DNA of 64,000 nt from positions 260,934-324,933 of the forward strand of contig JAJCZU010000006.1 in the NCBI GenBank assembly GCA_029262235.1, written 5' to 3'. The position numbers and the translations under genes were made by a program. The notes below the pieces were generated by a model. The model was not told where the DNA came from and made no database searches. It saw only the letters and a list, made by a program, of their open reading frames with translations. Below, piece after piece: positions 33,987 through 43,855 of the stretch. Origin of the DNA: Candidatus Eiseniibacteriota bacterium (GTDB lineage: Bacteria > Orphanbacterota > Orphanbacteria > Orphanbacterales > Orphanbacteraceae). How positions within the stretch are numbered: position 1 is the stretch's first letter; each line of letters opens with the position of its first letter.

Positions 33987-34504
33987 CCGCTATCGAACGC
34001 GTGGGGCTCGTGCTTCTTTTTGCGGCCGTACTTCTGGGCGTCTGGAGAACCGCGGACGGGTTCAGCCCGCAGGAGAGCGGCGTTCCGACCGTGACGGACT
34101 ATGCGCCGGGCTCGCTTCCGGGAGCGGAAGTTCTGGCTTCTGCGATTCGCACCGATCTGCTCGCGGCCGAACTCCGCTCGAAGCCGCCGGCACGTACGCC
34201 GTTCCGGAGCGTCCCGCGGGCCGCACAAGCCACGACCCGAAGCACATCGGCACCCGCCACGAAACGCAGCGCATCGCCGCCTGCCGTGAGCCGGCCGCGT
34301 GAGTCCCGCTCGTCGACAGTTCCGCGCGTCATGCTCGTGATCCGGGACGAAAGCGGCCCGCGTGTCGTGCTCTCCCTCGGCGAGAACAAGAGCGGCCCGC
34401 TCAGCGCCGGCGAAGACTTTTCGCACTGGAAAGTGAGAGAAATCGGCGTGGAGAAAGTCTACCTGGAAAAGAGCGGAATCCGCCTTACTCTTCCGATTCC
34501 TTAA
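33983..34504 (+). CDS. PilP/GspC-like protein
   Basis: The 173-residue protein has an N-terminal membrane helix (RVGLVLLFAAVLLGVWRTAD), a long Pro/Ser/Arg-rich linker, and a compact C-terminal beta domain (VMLVIRDESGPRVVLSLGEN, WKVREIGVEKVYLEKSGIRL) that resembles the HR domain of GspC/PilP, which contacts the secretin. No secretin gene follows. Its last 20 bases overlap the end of the opposing membrane-protein gene. Confidence 0.6.
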   Translation: MTAIERVGLVLLFAAVLLGVWRTADGFSPQESGVPTVTDYAPGSLPGAEVLASAIRTDLLAAELRSKPPARTPFRSVPRAAQATTRSTSAPATKRSASPPAVSRPRESRSSTVPRVMLVIRDESGPRVVLSLGENKSGPLSAGEDFSHWKVREIGVEKVYLEKSGIRLTLPIP

Positions 34505-36038
34505 ACCGTAAAGCAAAAAAGAGCAGCACGAGTCCGATCAGCAGCGCGACTTCGATCGTCCACGCGAGCGCGATCGGAAATCCGTAGAGTGCGTGCGCCT
34601 GCGCCGGCCAGAGGTCGAGCGGATAGTCGTGCGATCGGCCTGCGCGCGGTGCGATCGATTGCACCGCCGCCATGGCATGCGCGGTAAGTCGCGTTCGGCG
34701 CCAGTCGTGCCACGTATCTTCCCGTGTCACCGTGCGATCGATCGAAAGCAGTCCCGCTTCATGCAACGGGGCCGAGAGTTCCGTCAGCCCCCCCAGATGC
34801 CACAGCACGCCGAGCACCTGCACGCTCACTGAAACCACGATCAGGCCCTGGGCGAAGAATCGCCCGGGTGCGAGGAATCGCCCGGGTGCGAGGAATCGCC
34901 CGGGTGCGAGGAATCGCCCGGGTGCGAGGAATCGCCCGGAGGCGAGGAATCGCCCGGGTGCGAGATTTCCCCGCTTTCCCTTGATCGCCTCCATGCCGAA
35001 CATGGCGGGCGCCAGTAGAAAGGGGATGGCGGGAATCAGAAAGCGGGGGCCCCAGGTGTAGGCGTGAAACCACCACGAGGCGTAGAGACAGAGAAGGGAT
35101 GCCGGGATCCCCACCGCGAGCAGCGCTCCGCCCCGATGCGCGCGGGCGAGTCTGTGCAGACCGAAGAACGCGAGAATGAGGACGGGCGAATAAAGGAACA
35201 CGGACTCACCCGGGCTCGCGATCAAGCCCCACAGACCCTCGAAGAACGGGGTGGTGAACCCGCCGGTTCGCCATCGGTATACGTCGAAGAGCGACCCGAA
35301 CCGCCACCAGTTGAAAGAGAGCGATAAGAGAACGAAAGCGGCCGTGAAGCCGGCGGCCATGCGAACGAGCGCGCCGATTCGGCGCTGGGGCATTCGCACG
35401 AGAAGGTAAAGGGGAAGCCATGGCAGAACGACCACGCCCGTCACGCGAAAGGAGGCGACCACACCGGCGAGGACGCCGGCGAAGAAGATGTCGCGCGACC
35501 GCCCCGTCCGCGTAAAGCGCGTCACGAGCCATACGGCCGCCAGAAGCGCCGTCATCTGCGGGACCTCGGTCCAGCTTCGCTTCGTGTAGGGCCAGAGCAT
35601 CGTGGCTGTCGCGAACAGCAGGGCGCCCGCTTGTGATGTCCGTGCCCCGAGGCCGAGTTCGCGCAGCCAGAAGAAGAAGAGGGCGACGGCGAGGGCGGCG
35701 AGCAGCGGGCTCACCATGCTTGCCAGCGCCCCCTCGAAATAGACCTGGGAGGCGGGAGCGATCCAGCCGGCGCTTACGGCGTATCGTGCGATGGCGCTGG
35801 CCGGCACGAAAAGGAGGGAGTGCAGTGGCTCGAACTTCGCGTAGCTCCGTCCGTCCTTCGGCGAAACGAATGTGAGCTGGCCGAACGACGGGATGGCGAG
35901 CGAGCCCTGCTGGACGAGCGCGCGTGCGGTCTGCAGCTTGATATGGGAGTCGTTTACGTAGAGACGCCCCCCGCTCGTCATCAGAAAGAGCGCGAGGGCG
36001 AGAATTCCGAGAAGAATGCCTCGTTTCCGGTCCGTCAT
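34485..36038 (-). CDS. Polytopic membrane protein, glycosyltransferase-39/ArnT-like
   Basis: The 517-residue protein has about ten membrane helices. Its N-terminal periplasmic loop (GRLYVNDSHIKLQTARALVQ) and the segment ATMLWPYTKRSWTEVPQMTA resemble dolichyl/undecaprenyl-phosphate-sugar glycosyltransferases of the GT-C fold. The loop after KGKRGNL carries at least six tandem copies of a six-residue unit (APGRFL and variants) encoded by an 18-bp repeat. A -10-like TATCTT lies 6 bases before the ATG with no Shine-Dalgarno site, suggesting a leaderless message. Its 3' end overlaps the PilP-like gene in convergent orientation. The sugar donor and acceptor are unknown. Confidence 0.7.
   Translation of the reverse strand: MTDRKRGILLGILALALFLMTSGGRLYVNDSHIKLQTARALVQQGSLAIPSFGQLTFVSPKDGRSYAKFEPLHSLLFVPASAIARYAVSAGWIAPASQVYFEGALASMVSPLLAALAVALFFFWLRELGLGARTSQAGALLFATATMLWPYTKRSWTEVPQMTALLAAVWLVTRFTRTGRSRDIFFAGVLAGVVASFRVTGVVVLPWLPLYLLVRMPQRRIGALVRMAAGFTAAFVLLSLSFNWWRFGSLFDVYRWRTGGFTTPFFEGLWGLIASPGESVFLYSPVLILAFFGLHRLARAHRGGALLAVGIPASLLCLYASWWFHAYTWGPRFLIPAIPFLLAPAMFGMEAIKGKRGNLAPGRFLASGRFLAPGRFLAPGRFLAPGRFLAPGRFFAQGLIVVSVSVQVLGVLWHLGGLTELSAPLHEAGLLSIDRTVTREDTWHDWRRTRLTAHAMAAVQSIAPRAGRSHDYPLDLWPAQAHALYGFPIALAWTIEVALLIGLVLLFFALRFKESEE
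34851..34963. repeat. In-frame 18-bp tandem repeat array (6-7 copies)
   Basis: The unit (TCGCCCGGGTGCGAGGAA on the + strand) repeats with almost no change and adds six residues per copy to the opposing membrane protein. The first and last copies are diverged, and one internal copy has GGAGGC in place of GGGTGC. Its near-perfect identity suggests recent copy-number change. Confidence 0.95.
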
Positions 36039-36573: not shown

Positions 36574-37449
36574 ATGAAAGCGCTTGTCATCGTCAATCCG
36601 CGCGCCGGGATCGCGCGTGATCGCCAGAAGATCGCGCGGCAGGTCGAGGGCGCTCTGCCGGAGTACGCGGTCGAGATCGCAACACCGGGGAGTATCGCCG
36701 GCCTGCGTGAAACGGTGACCGGAGCCGTTGCAGCCGGGGCGGGGCTCGTGATCGCGGTGGGGGGCGACGGGACCGTCCACGAGGTGGGCCGGCATCTGAT
36801 CGGCACCCGGACGGCGCTCGGCATCCTTCCGCTCGGCTCGGGGAACGGACTCGCCCGGGGACTCGGGATCGGTTTCACGGCCAAACAGGCGCTCGACGTG
36901 CTCCGTGATGGAGGCGAGCGCACCATCGACGTCGGCTACGTGAATGAGGAGCCGTTCTTCAGCGTTTCCGGGATCGGGTTCGACGCGGCCGTCGGCGAGG
37001 GCTTCGCGAAGAGCAAAGTGCGCGGCATTCTGCCCTATCTCAGCATCGCGGCCCGCGAGTCGATTCAGTTCAAGCCGGTCGAAGTTTCGATCCGGTTCGG
37101 CGGGCGGGAAATCGTGGCGAAAGTTCTTCTGGTCGCAGTCGCCAATACGGACGAATTCGGATCGGGGGCGAAGATTGCGCCGAACGCCGATCCGTCGGAC
37201 GGGCTTCTGGATATCGTCGTGATCCGGAACGTAAACGTGCTCGAAATGCTCGTTAACTCGCCCCGGCTCTTCGACGGCACCATTCAGGATGCCGGTCCGG
37301 TCGAGATGTATCAGGCGAGCGAGATTCGAATCCTGCGGCCGCAGTCAGCCCCTCTCCATGTAGACGGCGAACCGCTGGAAGAAGGCCCGGTCCTTCATTA
37401 TAAAGTGGCTCGTGGCGCACTCCGCGTGCGCGTCCCGAAAACACCGTGA
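36574..37449 (+). CDS. Diacylglycerol/lipid kinase family protein
   Basis: The 291-residue protein belongs to the DAGK catalytic-domain family (YegS/BmrU/DgkB type), which phosphorylates lipids such as diacylglycerol. It has VIVNPRAGIARDRQKIARQV, the nucleotide-binding VIAVGGDGTVHEVGRHLIG, GILPLGSGNGLARGLGI, and a C-terminal lobe with SGIGFDAAVGEGFAKSKV and LHVDGEPLEEGPVLHYKV. A TAAGCT element ends 6 bases before ATG 36574, and there is no Shine-Dalgarno site, so translation may be leaderless. The lipid substrate cannot be read from sequence. Confidence 0.88.
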   Translation: MKALVIVNPRAGIARDRQKIARQVEGALPEYAVEIATPGSIAGLRETVTGAVAAGAGLVIAVGGDGTVHEVGRHLIGTRTALGILPLGSGNGLARGLGIGFTAKQALDVLRDGGERTIDVGYVNEEPFFSVSGIGFDAAVGEGFAKSKVRGILPYLSIAARESIQFKPVEVSIRFGGREIVAKVLLVAVANTDEFGSGAKIAPNADPSDGLLDIVVIRNVNVLEMLVNSPRLFDGTIQDAGPVEMYQASEIRILRPQSAPLHVDGEPLEEGPVLHYKVARGALRVRVPKTP

Positions 37450-37468
37450 GCGGAGCCACGCGATCCGC

Positions 37469-37497
37469 TTGCGATCCGGGCGCTCCTTCGTTAGGGT
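37469..37497 (+). promoter_or_regulatory. Promoter of the selenoprotein thioredoxin gene (leaderless)
   Basis: TTGCGA (37469-37474) and TAGGGT (37492-37497) are separated by 17 bases. ATG 37505 begins 8 bases after the last base of the -10 box, where transcription would start, and no Shine-Dalgarno site is present. Confidence 0.5.
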
Positions 37498-37504
37498 ATT
37501 TCGC

Positions 37505-38779
37505 ATGAAAGCGAGCACGACCACGACCACGAGCATGACCACGGCTGCAATACGCGGTGCGTTTCCATGCGCCGGCCGCCTGTTGCTGACGATCATCGGC
37601 GGCGCATGTGTTCTTGCGGGCGCCGGTTGCGGCGGCCTCGACGACTCCATCACCACGACCGTGAGGCCGATGGGAACGGATGAAGTGTGGAGCGCCGACT
37701 CTCCCCGGATCATGATGGAGTCGGGAACGCCCTTTTCGATCGCGAACTATCGTTCCAGGATCTATCCGTACTCCGCGGAGCTGCCGGTCGGGAGCGAAGG
37801 CGGCGTCCGTCCGAAAGTGATGGTGCAGGGGACGGAAGAAGGGGAGCTCTTCAATCAGCAGCTCTTCCTGAGCTTCGGTACGGAAGGCGGGTTCCGGCCG
37901 ACGAGCGCCACGTTCACGCCGCTTGCCGACCATCCCGGCTACTATGAAGCGACCGACCTCGACATCCCGATCGAAATTCTCGTGAACGGAAAGAAACACG
38001 AGCGGGCGGTTACGGTTTCCCCGCTGCTCCGGTGCCGGGATGGGAAAGTTCAGTTTCGATACTCCTCCCCGAACGTGCGCGAAGGCCGGTTTCCGGCGAT
38101 CGGTGTTCCGTTCCTGCTCTATGACGCTGATGTAAACGGCCTGTTCGACTCCAGTGACGTACTCGTGATCGACCATAACGGCGACGGTTTCTTCGACGGC
38201 AATCGGAACAGTATCGAGCGTTACTCGCTGTTCGAACCGTTCGACCTCGGTGGCCACGCCTACGCGATCACTTCCGTGCAGTGGGACGGCTCCCGTGTGC
38301 AGTGGGGCGATTCCGACGCCACCGTCGTGCCGCGTGATCCCCTGCTGGTCGGCGAACGCGCCCCCGACTTCACGCTTCCCGATCCGCAGGGAAACATGCT
38401 TTCGTTTCACGAAGTGCGCGATGGAAAGCCGGTGCTTCTTTCATACTGGGCCACGTGGTGACCCGGGTGTGTTGAGGAGTCTCCTCAACTCGCAAAACTG
38501 AACGAAGAGTATGGCGATCGCCTCACGGTTTTCGGCGTGAGCTACGACGATTCGGCATCGGCGGTCACCCGCTTCTTCGAAGAGAAGGGATACTCGTATC
38601 CTGTCGTGATGGACACGCGCATGGGCGGTGTGACGGGGCCGCTCTACCAGGTGGGGGGGATTCCGACGCTCATGCTGATCGGAGCGGACGGCACCGTGTT
38701 CGAACGTCGCATCGGGTTCGAGCCGGGTGACGAGCATGATCTTCGAAACGCCGTGGAACGCCTCCTGGCGGCTCGATGA
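37505..38779 (+). CDS. Selenocysteine-containing lipoprotein thioredoxin (TlpA/ResA-like), TGA at 38459 read as Sec
   Basis: Read through one in-frame TGA, this is a single 424-residue protein. The N-terminus is a lipoprotein signal ending LAGAGCGG (Cys42). A middle domain of unknown function (about 60-275) includes Asp-rich loops (YDADVNGLFDSSDV, IDHNGDGFFDGN). The C-terminal thioredoxin domain begins GERAPDFTLPDPQGNMLSFH. Its active site is SYWATW-U319-PGC322, where TlpA proteins normally have WCxxC. The fold continues in the same frame after the TGA (EESPQLAKLNEEYGDRLTVF, then cis-Pro VGGIPTLMLIGADGTVFERR). A bacterial SECIS-like hairpin lies directly downstream. The true stop overlaps the next gene by ATGA, showing that the ribosome is expected to reach it. 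A disabling nonsense mutation is the alternative and is less likely. Confidence 0.9.
38459..38493 (+). promoter_or_regulatory. Selenocysteine codon and bacterial SECIS-like hairpin
   Basis: TGA (38459-38461) is followed by GTTGAGGA (38471-38478), loop GTC, and TCCTCAAC (38482-38489): a perfect 8-bp stem. It extends by three more pairs after one T-T mismatch. The loop starts with G and lies 17 bases after the TGA, inside the 16-37-base window described for bacterial SECIS elements. Confidence 0.88.
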
Positions 38780-39864
38780 CAGAACGCCGGCGCGTCTACG
38801 CGGGATTCCTCGCAGCGACGCTTCTCTTTTTCCTCTTCTTTTTTCTGACCGCGCGCACGATCGGCGACGCTTTCCCCTCGACCGACACGACACTGTTCGA
38901 TCAAAAGCTGGCCGAGTTGTTCGGGTCTGAAGATCCGTACGACGTGATCTTTGTCGGCTCGAGTCGCGTGTACCGGCATGTTCGCCCCGCCACCTTCGAT
39001 TCCGTTCTCGCCGCGCACGACATTCCCGTGCACTCCTACAACCTCGGCTCCCCCGGTACGAACGCGTTCGAAACGCCGTTTCAGCTCCGCACGATCTTGA
39101 AGCGTGATCGCGAAGCGCGCATTCGATGGGTGTTCGTCGCTCTCGAGGGACTCGAATGGAACATGGAGGAGATGAACCTCGCAAGCGATCGGGTTTCCCG
39201 CTATTTCGACTGGCGTACTTTTCTGCGCGCGGCGCGGCTCCTGGGCGCAAACGAAACACGAGCGGATGAAGATCGACTCGCCGCGCTGCTCGATCGCGTG
39301 CCGCCGCTGTTCCGAAACGTGACGGCGTATGCGAGAGGCGGGAACTGGCTTCGCGAGCAGATCGAGCCGGGGCGAAGCATGGCGGCGTCTTCGCTGGCCA
39401 GACATGAGGACGGCTTTCTCTCGCTGGACACCGCGTATGAGTATTCCGAGGGGGCCGTGCGGGAAGATCTCGATGAGAGGATCGAAACGTACACGCGCAA
39501 CCGCGAGAAACGAGCGTTCAGAAAGGGGCGGGGCGATACGGACTCGACGGACGTGTCGCATCAGGCTCCCGTGCTCGGTGATCTCGTGCGCGAGATCGAG
39601 GAAATCGTGCGCGGGCACGGCGCGGAAGGCGTTTTCTTCGAACGGAACTTCAATCCGGGCGCGCCCGACCTGCAAGCGATGAAACGCGCGGGGCGGATCA
39701 GGCATTTGATTTCGCTCGAAGATGCCGTTCGCTATCCGGCGCTCCATGATGACCGGCACCGGTTCGACGGCGGTCACTTCGGTGCCGAGGGGGCGGAAGT
39801 TCTGACCCGGTATCTTGCGGAGGCGTTCGTGCCGATTGCACGAGGGAACGGCGGCGGCTCTTGA
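38776..39864 (+). CDS. Membrane-anchored SGNH-like (AlgJ/AlgX/DltD-like) protein, copy 1
   Basis: The 362-residue protein has an N-terminal membrane anchor (FLAATLLFFLFFFLTA) and an outward-facing SGNH-hydrolase-like domain. The nucleophile block is DVIFVGSSRVYRHVRPATFD (Ser near 62), and the C-terminal D-x-x-H block is FDGGHFGAEGAEVLTRYLAE (about 331-335). Such proteins work with MBOAT acyltransferases to acylate exported polymers. It is coupled by ATGA to the selenoprotein gene before it and by TTGA to the MBOAT gene after it. A second copy lies at 41.4 kb. The acceptor is unknown. Confidence 0.82.
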   Translation: MTERRRVYAGFLAATLLFFLFFFLTARTIGDAFPSTDTTLFDQKLAELFGSEDPYDVIFVGSSRVYRHVRPATFDSVLAAHDIPVHSYNLGSPGTNAFETPFQLRTILKRDREARIRWVFVALEGLEWNMEEMNLASDRVSRYFDWRTFLRAARLLGANETRADEDRLAALLDRVPPLFRNVTAYARGGNWLREQIEPGRSMAASSLARHEDGFLSLDTAYEYSEGAVREDLDERIETYTRNREKRAFRKGRGDTDSTDVSHQAPVLGDLVREIEEIVRGHGAEGVFFERNFNPGAPDLQAMKRAGRIRHLISLEDAVRYPALHDDRHRFDGGHFGAEGAEVLTRYLAEAFVPIARGNGGGS

Positions 39865-41261
39865 TTTTCACGGAGCTGCGCTTTCTGGTCTTCTTCGCGA
39901 TCGTGCTCGGCGTCCACTGGGTGCTCCCCCGAAACCGGCCCCGCAAGGTGTGGCTTCTCGCTGCAAGCTACGTGTTTTATGCCGCCTGGGACTGGCGCTT
40001 CCTGAGCCTGATTCTCGGTTCCACGATCGTGGACTATATCGTCGGGCTCAAGCTCGAGAGCGGTGGCGACCCGCGCATGCGGCGCGGATGGATTGCCGTA
40101 AGCGTGGTCGTGAACCTGTCGCTTCTGGCCGTCTTCAAGTATTTCCACTTCTTCGCCGACTCGGCCGCCGCTCTACTGCAGGCGCTCGGCCTCACGGTCG
40201 AGCCTGCGTCCCTGCGCATCATTCTTCCCGTGGGAATCAGTTTCTATACGTTTCAAACGATGAGCTATTCGCTCGACATCTATCGGGGGAAGCTCCGGGC
40301 GACGCGCGACTTTCTGGACCTTGCGCTTTTCGTGGGCTTCTTCCCGCAGCTCGTGGCCGGCCCGATCGTGCGTGCCCGTGATTTTCTGCCGCAGCTTCTC
40401 CGCCGTCGTGTTTCATCGGACATTGCTTTTCGCCCGCTGCTTCTCCTGTTCCTTTCCGGTTTCTTCAAGAAAGCGTGTATCTCCGACAATATATCCGGCG
40501 TAGTCGATGCCTACTTCACAGACCCGACTGCGTACGACGCCTTGAGCGCATGGATCGCCGTGCTTCTTTACGCCGTGCAGATCTACTGCGACTTCTCCGG
40601 CTATTCGGACATGGCGATCGCGACGGCCGGATTTCTCGGCTACTCGCTCTGCGAGAACTTCGCGTTCCCGTATTTCGCGGGGAGCATTCAGGACTTCTGG
40701 CGGCGCTGGCACATCAGCCTGTCGTCCTGGCTGCGTGACTACCTCTATATTCCTCTCGGCGGAAGCTATGGCGGAAAGCTCTACCGCTATCGCAACCTGA
40801 TGCTGACCATGCTGCTGGGCGGTCTGTGGCACGGGGCGGCCTGGCGCTTCGTGATCTGGGGCGGGCTGCACGGTCTGGCCCTGATCGTGCATCGCGAGTT
40901 TCACGAACGGGTGCGTGGGAGTTCGTTCCGCGTTCCCCCCGCGATCGGCATTGCCGTCACGTTCTGGTGGGTGGGCCTTACGTGGATCTTTTTTCGCGCA
41001 GCGGACTGGCAGTCGGCATTTGTGACCGCCCGCGCCTATCTGCTGTTCGAGAGCCCGGGTACGAGCAGCCTTCCCGTGCAATCCTTCGGGATGTTCGCGC
41101 TGCTTGCCATCATGCACGCCGCGGCCTGCCGGGGGACGTGGCGGAACAGATTACTCAGGGCGCCGCGCCCTCTCTTCGGCGCGTGTGTCGGCGCGATCGT
41201 GGCGCTGATTCTGATCTTCAAGGCCGCGTCGGTCAGCCCCTTCATCTACTTTCAGTTTTGA
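39861..41261 (+). CDS. MBOAT family O-acyltransferase (DltB/AlgI-like), copy 1
   Basis: The 466-residue polytopic protein matches the MBOAT/AlgI family, which moves acyl groups across the membrane. It has FTELRFLVFFAIVLGVHW, PVGISFYTFQTMSYSLDIYR, VAGPIVRARDFLPQL, WRRWHISLSSWLRDYLYIPL and the active-site histidine in LLGGLWHGAAWRFVIWGGLH (near residue 324). The start is TTG 39861, overlapping the stop of the SGNH-like gene. Alginate is not implied: no alginate genes are present here. Confidence 0.93.
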   Translation: MIFTELRFLVFFAIVLGVHWVLPRNRPRKVWLLAASYVFYAAWDWRFLSLILGSTIVDYIVGLKLESGGDPRMRRGWIAVSVVVNLSLLAVFKYFHFFADSAAALLQALGLTVEPASLRIILPVGISFYTFQTMSYSLDIYRGKLRATRDFLDLALFVGFFPQLVAGPIVRARDFLPQLLRRRVSSDIAFRPLLLLFLSGFFKKACISDNISGVVDAYFTDPTAYDALSAWIAVLLYAVQIYCDFSGYSDMAIATAGFLGYSLCENFAFPYFAGSIQDFWRRWHISLSSWLRDYLYIPLGGSYGGKLYRYRNLMLTMLLGGLWHGAAWRFVIWGGLHGLALIVHREFHERVRGSSFRVPPAIGIAVTFWWVGLTWIFFRAADWQSAFVTARAYLLFESPGTSSLPVQSFGMFALLAIMHAAACRGTWRNRLLRAPRPLFGACVGAIVALILIFKAASVSPFIYFQF

Positions 41262-41275
41262 TCGCACCGGAGTCC

Positions 41276-41304
41276 TTGTCACACCGCCGCCGCTTCGCTA
41301 GGCT
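41276..41304 (+). promoter_or_regulatory. Promoter before the second SGNH-MBOAT pair
   Basis: TTGTCA (41276-41281) and TAGGCT (41299-41304) have 17-base spacing. An ATG at 41312 would open a 17-codon leaderless ORF ending just before the SGNH copy 2 start, so the pair may have its own regulated leader. Confidence 0.5.
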
Positions 41305-41372
41305 CTGCCTCATGATCGGAATGAGAAATCACAGGGGTGGCCGACGATTCCCCGCAACAGGTTGACGCCACT

Positions 41373-42455
41373 ATGTCTCTACCGGTGAATCGCGTCGTGA
41401 AATCGCTCCTCAGCATGGTTCTGTTTCTGTCGACCCTTGCGATTGCGGCGCACTTTATCGGCGGCGCGTTCCCTTCGAACGACAACCGGTTCTTCGATCG
41501 CAAACTCGCGCAGTTTGCAGCGGCCGACCCACCCTACGATGTGATCTTTACCGGTTCGAGTCGCGTCTACCGGCATATCCATCCCGCGATGTTCGATTCG
41601 GTCACGGCCGCGAACGGAATCTCCACGCATTCGTACAATTTCGGTTATACGGGAACGACTCCGCTCGAGACACCACACCAGCTCAGGCAGATCCTGGCGG
41701 AAGATCAGGCGGGGCATGTGCGCTGGGTCTTCGTTTCGCTCGAAGGGCTCGAAACGCAGCTCGAGAAGATGAACCTGCGAAGTGATCGCGTGGCGCTCTA
41801 TCACGACCGTCACACGTTCGCGCGCTATGCGCGACTGCTTGTCGCGAACGGGAGTCTGACCTGGAAAGAGCGGCTCGAAGCGCTCGGCGAACGGGTCCTG
41901 CCGCTCTTCATCCACTACACGGGCCACGGGAGGGGCGGTACCTGGTTCCGGGAGCGGATCGAGGCACGCCCGGTCGGCATCGCCGAAACGTGGTGGCAGC
42001 ACGAGGACGGTTTTCTTTCGCTCGACAGCGCCGTCGTGTATGCCCGGGGTGTGGCGAAGGATCGGCTCGAAAAACGCCGTGACAAACTCGTGGGTCGGCC
42101 CGCTGATCAAACGGACAGCTTCGCGGCAGACTATCCCGACCTTTCGTACCAGCAGCCGGTGCTCGAAGATCTCATCGCGGATATCAGCGCCGTGGTGCGG
42201 GGGCATGGCGCGGAAGTCGTGTTCTTCGTTCGCACCATGGACGCTGAGGCGGCGCACGACCTCGAGTCCGCGCGCCGTGACGGCGCCCTTACGCATCTCA
42301 TCTCGCTCGACGACGCCGCTCGCTACCCGGAGCTCCATGACAGGCGCTACCTGTTCGACGAAGGCCACTTCGGGGCGGAGGGGGCCGCGTTCTTTACGCG
42401 GTATCTTGCCGAAGGCTTCGTGCCCGTCGCGAAGCGAAGCGGGGACGCGCGATGA
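41373..42455 (+). CDS. Membrane-anchored SGNH-like protein, copy 2
   Basis: This about 360-residue protein is clearly homologous to the product of 38776-39864. It has an N-terminal membrane anchor (LLSMVLFLSTLAIAAHFI), DVIFTGSSRVYRHIHPAMFD with the nucleophile Ser, WVFVSLEGLETQLEKMNL, and FDEGHFGAEGAAFFTRYLAE with the D-x-x-H block. ATG 41373 is favoured; GTG 41337 is an alternative that adds 12 residues before the anchor. Neither has a strong Shine-Dalgarno site. The end overlaps the MBOAT copy 2 by ATGA. It is probably a product of tandem duplication of the two-gene unit. Confidence 0.82.
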   Translation: MSLPVNRVVKSLLSMVLFLSTLAIAAHFIGGAFPSNDNRFFDRKLAQFAAADPPYDVIFTGSSRVYRHIHPAMFDSVTAANGISTHSYNFGYTGTTPLETPHQLRQILAEDQAGHVRWVFVSLEGLETQLEKMNLRSDRVALYHDRHTFARYARLLVANGSLTWKERLEALGERVLPLFIHYTGHGRGGTWFRERIEARPVGIAETWWQHEDGFLSLDSAVVYARGVAKDRLEKRRDKLVGRPADQTDSFAADYPDLSYQQPVLEDLIADISAVVRGHGAEVVFFVRTMDAEAAHDLESARRDGALTHLISLDDAARYPELHDRRYLFDEGHFGAEGAAFFTRYLAEGFVPVAKRSGDAR

Positions 42456-43855
42456 TTTTCACCGAGTTTCGCTTTCTCGCATTCTTCGCGGTCGTCCTCG
42501 CCGTTCACTGGGCACTGCCGCGCAACCGACCACGCAAGCTGTGGCTGCTGCTCGCGAGCTATGCGTTTTACGCGGCGTGGGACTGGCGGTTTTTGAGCCT
42601 GATTCTCGGGTCGACGGTTCTCGACTACTTCGTGGGGCGCAAGCTCGACGAGGAGGGCAGGAGCGACCGCGCGCGCAAGCGATGGGTCTCGCTGAGCGTT
42701 GTCGGCAACCTGGGGCTCCTGAGCGCCTTCAAGTACTTCCATTTCTTCGCGGATTCGGCGCTGGCGCTTCTACAGGCTCTCGGCTTTCATGCCGATCCGC
42801 TCACGCTCAGGATCATCCTGCCGGTCGGCATCAGTTTCTATACGTTTCAAACGATGAGCTACTCGCTCGACATCTATCGCAGGAAGATGCGCGCGACCCA
42901 TGACATTCTGGATCTCGCACTGTTCGTCGGCTTTTTTCCCCAGCTCGTGGCGGGACCGATCGTGCGCGCGCGCGAGTTTATCCCTCAGCTGGCACGCCGG
43001 CGCGCCTTATCGGACGTACGCTTTCGTCCGTACCTGCTTCTGTTTCTCGCGGGGTTTTTCAAGAAGGCGTGCGTATCGGACAACATCGTGGGCGTGGTCG
43101 ACCGCTACTTCGCCGACCCGTCATCATACGACGCCCTCAGCACCTGGATCGCCGTGCTCCTCTACACGATTCAGATCTACTGCGATTTCTCAGGCTACTC
43201 GGACATCGCAATCGCAACGGCGGGGTTTCTCGGGTACACGCTCTGCGAGAACTTCGCCTTTCCGTACTTCTCGGGAAGCATTCAGGATCTCTGGCGGCGC
43301 TGGCACATCAGCCTGTCCTCGTGGCTCCGTGACTATCTCTATATTCCGCTCGGGGGGAGCAAGGGAGGCAAGCTGTTCCGGTATCGCAATCTGATGCTCA
43401 CGATGCTCCTTGGCGGACTCTGGCACGGCGCGGCGTGGCGGTTCGTGATCTGGGGAGGCCTGCACGGTGTTTCGCTCGTATTTCATCGCGAGTTTCACGA
43501 ATGGATGGAGCGAAGAGGATGGCGCGTGCCGTCTCCCGCGGGTATCGCCATCACAATGTGGTGGTTCATGCTCACGCTCATCTGTTTTCGCTCCGAGAGC
43601 TGGACGAACGCATACACGACCACGCGCGCGTATCTGCTGTTCGAAAGCCCGGGGGCACGAAGTCTGCCCCGTGAGCTTCTCGCGGTCATCGTTCTGCTCG
43701 GTGTCATGCACGCCATCGCGTATCGAGCGCCGTTTCGCGGCCTTCTGGAGCGTGTGCCCGGGCCGGTTTTCGCGATGATCGTCGGGCTGGCGACGGCGGT
43801 CATATTGACGTTCATGGCGACCGACGTGACCCCCTTCATCTACTTCCAGTTCTAA
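42452..43855 (+). CDS. MBOAT family O-acyltransferase, copy 2
   Basis: The 467-residue protein is a close paralogue of the 39861-41261 product. The two share long identical stretches such as PVGISFYTFQTMSYSLDIYR and WHISLSSWLRDYLYIPLGGS, and the catalytic LLGGLWHGAAWRFVIWGGLH. Differences concentrate in the loops and C-terminal third. The start is ATG 42452, overlapping its SGNH partner. Each MBOAT thus has its own partner, suggesting two acylation activities with different acceptors or donors. No terminator is obvious after it. Confidence 0.93.
   Translation: MIFTEFRFLAFFAVVLAVHWALPRNRPRKLWLLLASYAFYAAWDWRFLSLILGSTVLDYFVGRKLDEEGRSDRARKRWVSLSVVGNLGLLSAFKYFHFFADSALALLQALGFHADPLTLRIILPVGISFYTFQTMSYSLDIYRRKMRATHDILDLALFVGFFPQLVAGPIVRAREFIPQLARRRALSDVRFRPYLLLFLAGFFKKACVSDNIVGVVDRYFADPSSYDALSTWIAVLLYTIQIYCDFSGYSDIAIATAGFLGYTLCENFAFPYFSGSIQDLWRRWHISLSSWLRDYLYIPLGGSKGGKLFRYRNLMLTMLLGGLWHGAAWRFVIWGGLHGVSLVFHREFHEWMERRGWRVPSPAGIAITMWWFMLTLICFRSESWTNAYTTTRAYLLFESPGARSLPRELLAVIVLLGVMHAIAYRAPFRGLLERVPGPVFAMIVGLATAVILTFMATDVTPFIYFQF

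Follow-up and report, generated by a model that had tools for sequence, protein, structure and literature searches.

A predicted selenoprotein gene for an exported, probably lipid-anchored TlpA/ResA-type thioredoxin with an orphan N-terminal domain in Candidatus Eiseniibacteriota

The DNA analysed here, referred to as the window, is a stretch of 64,000 nucleotides of contig JAJCZU010000006.1 from a Candidatus Eiseniibacteriota bacterium (GCA_029262235.1). It contains a long reading frame that starts at ATG 37505 and is interrupted at codon 319 by an in-frame TGA (Table 1). The frame 5' of this TGA ends in LLSYWATW while the frame 3' of it opens with PGCVEESPQL, giving the active-site context WATW-U-PG-C, with TGA in place of the first Cys of a TlpA/ResA-type site. 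The distal stop, TGA 38777-38779, overlaps ATG 38776 of the following open reading frame (ATGA). Because Sec is written as an in-frame TGA, the standard list of open reading frames has the gene as two separate entries of 349 aa (37412-38461) and 80 aa (38537-38779), and ordinary annotation likewise divides it. A sequence-only reading had described a lipoprotein/thioredoxin frame split by the TGA, with WATW before and PGC after it, a distal stop overlapping the next gene by ATGA and a locus that gene callers would cut in two. Apart from lipid attachment, which is probable, these points were borne out by direct reading of the sequence, by the list of open reading frames and by a Pfam match to Redoxin/AhpC-TSA that continues across the TGA (residues 282-416, E 6e-21). 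A scan of the window for TGA codons flanked on either side by open frame and accompanied by a nearby Cys and a hairpin yielded ten candidates, among which only 38459 has a recognisable active-site context, the other nine being judged by eye.

The gene of a YegS/DAGK-type lipid kinase lies directly upstream, as it does in two of the genomes carrying an orthologue, and offers no clear functional lead for the selenoprotein. Downstream, two tandem gene pairs occupy window positions 38776-43855, in each of which a gene for a protein of approximately 365 aa without a Pfam match precedes one for an MBOAT O-acyltransferase. The genes within each pair overlap by a few bases, and the pairs resemble polysaccharide acylation pairs. 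Further upstream, on the minus strand, a PMT_2 glycosyltransferase gene (34485-36038) contains a short in-frame APGRFL repeat of about six copies (window 34840-34960).

Table 1. Positions in the window of the predicted selenoprotein gene, its parts and its upstream neighbour
Feature	Positions	Strand	Basis or remark
YegS/DAGK-type lipid kinase gene	36574-37449	+	Upstream neighbour in G004 and G005 too
Selenoprotein gene (predicted)	37505-38779	+	424 codons and a stop, codon 319 (TGA) taken as Sec; sequence, Pfam, orthologue alignment
Signal peptide and probable lipid-attachment Cys42 (codon 37628-37630)	37505-37630	+	Cys42 and next Gly invariant in 6 orthologues after hydrophobic stretch
Orphan N-terminal domain, predicted all-beta	37640-38329	+	No Pfam family over cut-off, no PDB fold match at E <= 0.001
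Two EF-hand-like acidic loops	38123-38197	+	Residues 207-218 DADVNGLFDSSD and 223-231 DHNGDGFFD; invariant alignment columns
TlpA/ResA-type thioredoxin domain	38342-38776	+	Pfam Redoxin/AhpC-TSA, ResA 4nmu E 4e-18, Foldseek to ResA/DsbE
In-frame TGA, predicted Sec319, first residue of UxxC active site	38459-38461	+	TGA in G000, G001, G004, G005 and G006; TGC in G277
Cys322, predicted resolving cysteine of UPGC	38468-38470	+	Invariant in orthologue alignment
Predicted SECIS hairpin	38471-38489	+	Stem 38471-38478 / 38482-38489, loop GTC 38479-38481
Pro387 of cis-Pro loop (GGIPT)	38663-38665	+	I386-P387-T388 invariant in 6 orthologues

The encoded protein is predicted to be exported and is probably lipid-anchored, as suggested by Cys42, which together with Gly43 is invariant in six of six orthologues at the end of a hydrophobic segment; the lipobox of the host copy, AGAG-C, is loose at position -3 (Gly). 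The N-terminal domain that follows comprises some 230 residues and its predicted structure is all-beta (mean pLDDT 82). It reached the cut-off of no Pfam family, and the best match in a fold search of the PDB had an E of 0.019. When the whole protein was used in a fold search of a viral library, the matches were limited to thioredoxin and peroxidase folds, the N-terminal domain being left without identity. A TlpA protein of Bacteroidota that partly overlapped this domain in tblastn showed no relation to it in a profile comparison (hhalign probability 0.1). In the two acidic loops of the domain, the residues D207, D209, N211, G212 and D218 and the residues D223, N225, D227, G228 and D231, respectively, are invariant, and on the basis of these columns the domain may bind calcium in an EF-hand-like manner. 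That it could position the redox domain or recognise a substrate is guesswork.

The thioredoxin domain is closest in the PDB to ResA and DsbE-type proteins, with a Foldseek E of 2.5e-10 and a TM-score on the target of 0.79. The Redoxin/AhpC-TSA fold, the CxxC-type site and the cis-Pro loop place it in the TlpA/ResA-type superfamily. Throughout the six aligned orthologues, Cys42, Sec319 and Cys322 are the only invariant Cys/Sec positions.

The genome in which the gene resides (4.47 Mb, 95.5 % complete) contains a complete Sec pathway. One tRNA-Sec, with anticodon UCA, scores over the Rfam cut-off (70.7 bits), and SelA (538 bits), a full-length SelB of 641 aa (370 bits) and SelD (349 bits) are present, so that the search for selA, selB, selD and a tRNA-Sec that had been proposed from the sequence yielded all four. 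The selD gene has an in-frame TGA of its own in a CGU motif (GLSRTCGUAAK; locus L018, G000:C3:455857-456780) with a predicted hairpin downstream. As a second, classical selenoprotein gene in the same genome, it serves as an internal control. Another SelD (L019, 1348-3849, minus strand; 833 aa) has Cys (CAGC) in place of Sec and carries a fused NADH-dehydrogenase-like domain; fusions of this type have been described before (PMC2398784).

Orthologues were sought in seven genomes of the phylum, all belonging to one family. Besides the host, the genomes of four further species of this family were found to have full-length orthologues, with 85, 47, 41 and 40 % identity, and all have TGA at exactly codon 319. 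The carriers of the TGA (the host G000 as well as G001, G004, G005 and G006) represent three genera, and their active-site motifs are UPGC, USGC or UGGC. The nearest relative, G001, shares its contig with a MAG deposited under the name Gemmatimonadetes bacterium SS_bin_27, and because of this the two records were counted once. Two of these assemblies are fragmented; in G001 (82 % complete), neither SelA nor a tRNA-Sec scoring above the cut-off was detected, and G006 (91 % complete) gave no SelA match. At the threshold used, G002 and G003 contain shorter TlpA-type proteins with CxxC only; SelA and tRNA-Sec are present in both genomes. Outside the home family, searches of 386 and 385 genomes, in which four candidates were scored per genome, uncovered no orthologue of the same architecture except one in G277, a member of another phylum found among the 386 genomes sampled as relatives. 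This full-length orthologue has TGC (Cys) at the position of the TGA, in the motif CGGC. The position of codon 319 is accordingly occupied by Sec or Cys and nothing else in the full-length homologues, as had been anticipated from the sequence, and by Cys in ResA-type relatives as well. The observations named beforehand as fatal to a Sec reading, a lack of Sec machinery and a sense codon other than Cys at this site, were not encountered.

Directly downstream of the TGA, the sequences GTTGAGGA/TCCTCAAC form a stem of eight Watson-Crick pairs. The perfect 8-bp hairpin with a G-first three-base loop proposed in the sequence-only reading was thus confirmed, whereas the distance of 17 bases from the TGA given there is true of the loop; the stem starts at 9 nt. 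Bacterial SECIS elements are described as having a loop of 3-9 nt, a stem of 4-16 bp, a G in the first two loop positions, a spacing of 16-37 nt and an MFE of at most -7.5 kcal/mol (PMC13188914). Scoring of the hairpin, a check suggested earlier, showed agreement with every one of these constraints (3 nt, 8 bp, G first, 17 nt and, for the isolated hairpin, -10.7 kcal/mol). Only 7 of the 1578 TGA trinucleotides in the window (0.44 %) are followed by a qualifying hairpin of at least eight Watson-Crick pairs. The free energy of a 52-nt stretch is only 1.45 sd below that of shuffled sequences.

All five Sec genes have an identical stem, and their loops (GTC, GGT or GGC) always start with G. At columns where all five Sec proteins have the same residue, the codons are identical in 5 of 6 cases in the hairpin versus 14 of 104 elsewhere (Fisher p = 5e-4). 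The hairpin codons are mostly rare ones (GTT, CCT, CAA and TCT), and the chance of finding all five required wobble bases, given the amino acids and the codon usage of the genome, is 4e-5 for G000, 7e-4 for G004 and 2e-5 for G005, values that are not independent since the genes share ancestry. Conserved residues are encoded by the hairpin as well, so that its conservation is due in part to the protein.

The Cys gene of G277 has kept the hairpin, in the form GTTGCGGA-GTT-TCCGCAAC (L032, G277:C157, minus strand, locus 1780-1803), with eight pairs, a loop starting with G and a free energy of -12.4 kcal/mol. Relative to the Sec genes, one stem pair has changed on both sides, from A-U to C-G, which is a compensatory change, and by codon usage the G277 stem has a p of 9e-4. 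In a shuffle control on the stem pairs, 72 of 500 shuffles reached the one covarying pair; this control is weak because seven of the eight stem pairs never vary. The G277 genome still contains SelA and a tRNA-Sec with anticodon UCA. A second tRNA-Sec-like match in this genome (50 bits), considered as a Sec tRNA for another codon, proved to be a tRNA-Leu(UAA).

The simplest reading of these data is that the G277 hairpin would be a remnant SECIS element in a former Sec gene that was converted to a Cys gene, the direction of the change being suggested by the hairpin and the single covarying pair constituting limited evidence. Remnant SECIS-like structures have been reported in Cys-containing FdhA and HesB-like proteins, and the number of families with Sec-to-Cys events was given as only four (PMC1794560). 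As in FdhA of M. succiniciproducens and the HesB-like protein of D. hafniense, a Cys codon is followed by a SECIS-like hairpin in G277 (PMC1794560); the difference is that the present case concerns a UxxC thiol-redox family and a stem with a two-sided compensatory change. It is unlikely that the hairpin has been kept because the Sec machinery of G277 still inserts Sec at the UGC part of the time. Some Sec is reported to be inserted at UGC by the E. coli machinery in recombinant constructs bearing a SECIS element (PMC3834832) and, if the same were true in G277, one gene would specify a facultative Cys/Sec active site. Sharing one RNA hairpin, the Sec and Cys orthologues lend themselves to a natural comparison of what Sec gains over Cys in a periplasmic redox protein and of how a Sec gene becomes a Cys gene.

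The overlap of the hairpin with a conserved peptide (VEExPQL) and its persistence in the Cys orthologue would also fit a mere by-product of the coding sequence, with another element directing Sec insertion. Such an explanation is very improbable, as the fixed rare wobble bases coincide exactly with paired positions, one stem pair was changed on both sides, and the loop and spacing fit the SECIS model. Slightly less probable still is a reading of the TGA as another residue, either by stop-codon read-through or by a reassigned code in which TGA specifies Trp. The frame is indeed open past the TGA, but TGA is also the ordinary stop of the same gene, the position aligns with a catalytic Cys and never with Trp, and a SECIS-like hairpin as well as the full Sec pathway are present.

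The part of the gene downstream of the TGA appears to have been under the same constraint as the part upstream of it: omega before and after the TGA is 0.147 and 0.141 for the G000/G001 pair and 0.26 and 0.17 for the G005/G006 pair. Purifying selection is thus alike on both sides, which argues that the downstream part is translated. An ordinary stop, arisen by nonsense mutation or by a sequencing or assembly error in a Cys (TGC/TGT) gene, would require a single base change from the TGC seen in G277, but is hardly credible in view of this selection, the conserved hairpin, the Sec machinery and the recurrence of this TGA in five genomes, spanning three genera and protein identities as low as 40 %, which makes a sequencing error implausible; a pseudogene was dismissed on the same grounds.

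The locus is therefore almost certainly a selenoprotein gene, encoding an exported, probably lipid-anchored protein in which an all-beta N-terminal domain precedes a TlpA/ResA-type thioredoxin with the active site U-P-G-C. Judging from the machinery and the conserved signal, SelB carrying Sec-tRNA(Sec) would bind the hairpin and Sec would be inserted at the UGA. In the established chemistry of TlpA, ResA and thioredoxin, attack comes from the motif's exposed first residue and resolution from the second Cys. By analogy, the Sec319 selenolate would act on a partner in the periplasm, attacking its disulfide or another oxidised thiol, after which Cys322 would resolve the mixed selenenylsulfide. 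The host genome encodes one DsbD_TM protein and, going by the family, the oxidised selenoprotein may be re-reduced via this DsbD-type membrane reductase. Both the reductase direction and the nature of the substrate are extrapolated from these relatives.

UxxC selenoproteins of the TlpA, redoxin and Prx-like types have been listed in surveys (PMC1088965; PMC2398784; PMC13188914), the catalogued groups including 'Thiol-disulfide isomerase-like protein' (cd02966) and 'Trx-like 1' (COG0526) (PMC13188914; PMC1088965; PMC2398784). The present protein shares with them the replacement by Sec of the first Cys of CxxC in a TlpA-like fold and the SECIS element directly downstream, and differs by its 230-residue N-terminal domain without a Pfam family, located after a probable lipoprotein signal. 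Proteins associated with Unknown_3 also combine a Redoxin domain with UxxC, some members being fused to an unknown domain (PMC2398784). Conserved Cys residues, among them a CxxC, are described for Unknown_3, whereas the N-terminal domain found here has no invariant Cys, a distinction made by description. Periplasmic thiol-disulfide oxidoreductases of the ResA/DsbE (CcmG) type (4nmu, 3gl3 and 1st9) share the thioredoxin domain but have Cys in CxxC and are without the N-terminal domain; the cut-offs of the NCBIfam models for ResA (NF002854; 77 versus 170 bits) and DsbE (TIGR00385; 60 versus 123 bits) were not reached. NF041054 (WAxxUGC_long) represents a ResA-like selenoprotein family as well, but its motif is the adjacent UGC instead of UPGC (UxxC), and the score of 40 bits is below its cut-off of 300. 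As no NCBIfam model reached its cut-off on the selenoprotein, the subfamily with the N-terminal domain appears to be unnamed in NCBIfam. It may be among the unlabelled sequences of the published surveys.

In conclusion, a subfamily that is broken at the TGA by gene callers and has no name in the family models checked adds a bacterial lineage that has been little sampled to those with Sec-dependent redox proteins of the envelope. Selenoproteins of the UxxC TlpA/redoxin type were already known; what is new is a probable lipid-anchored subfamily with an orphan N-terminal domain.
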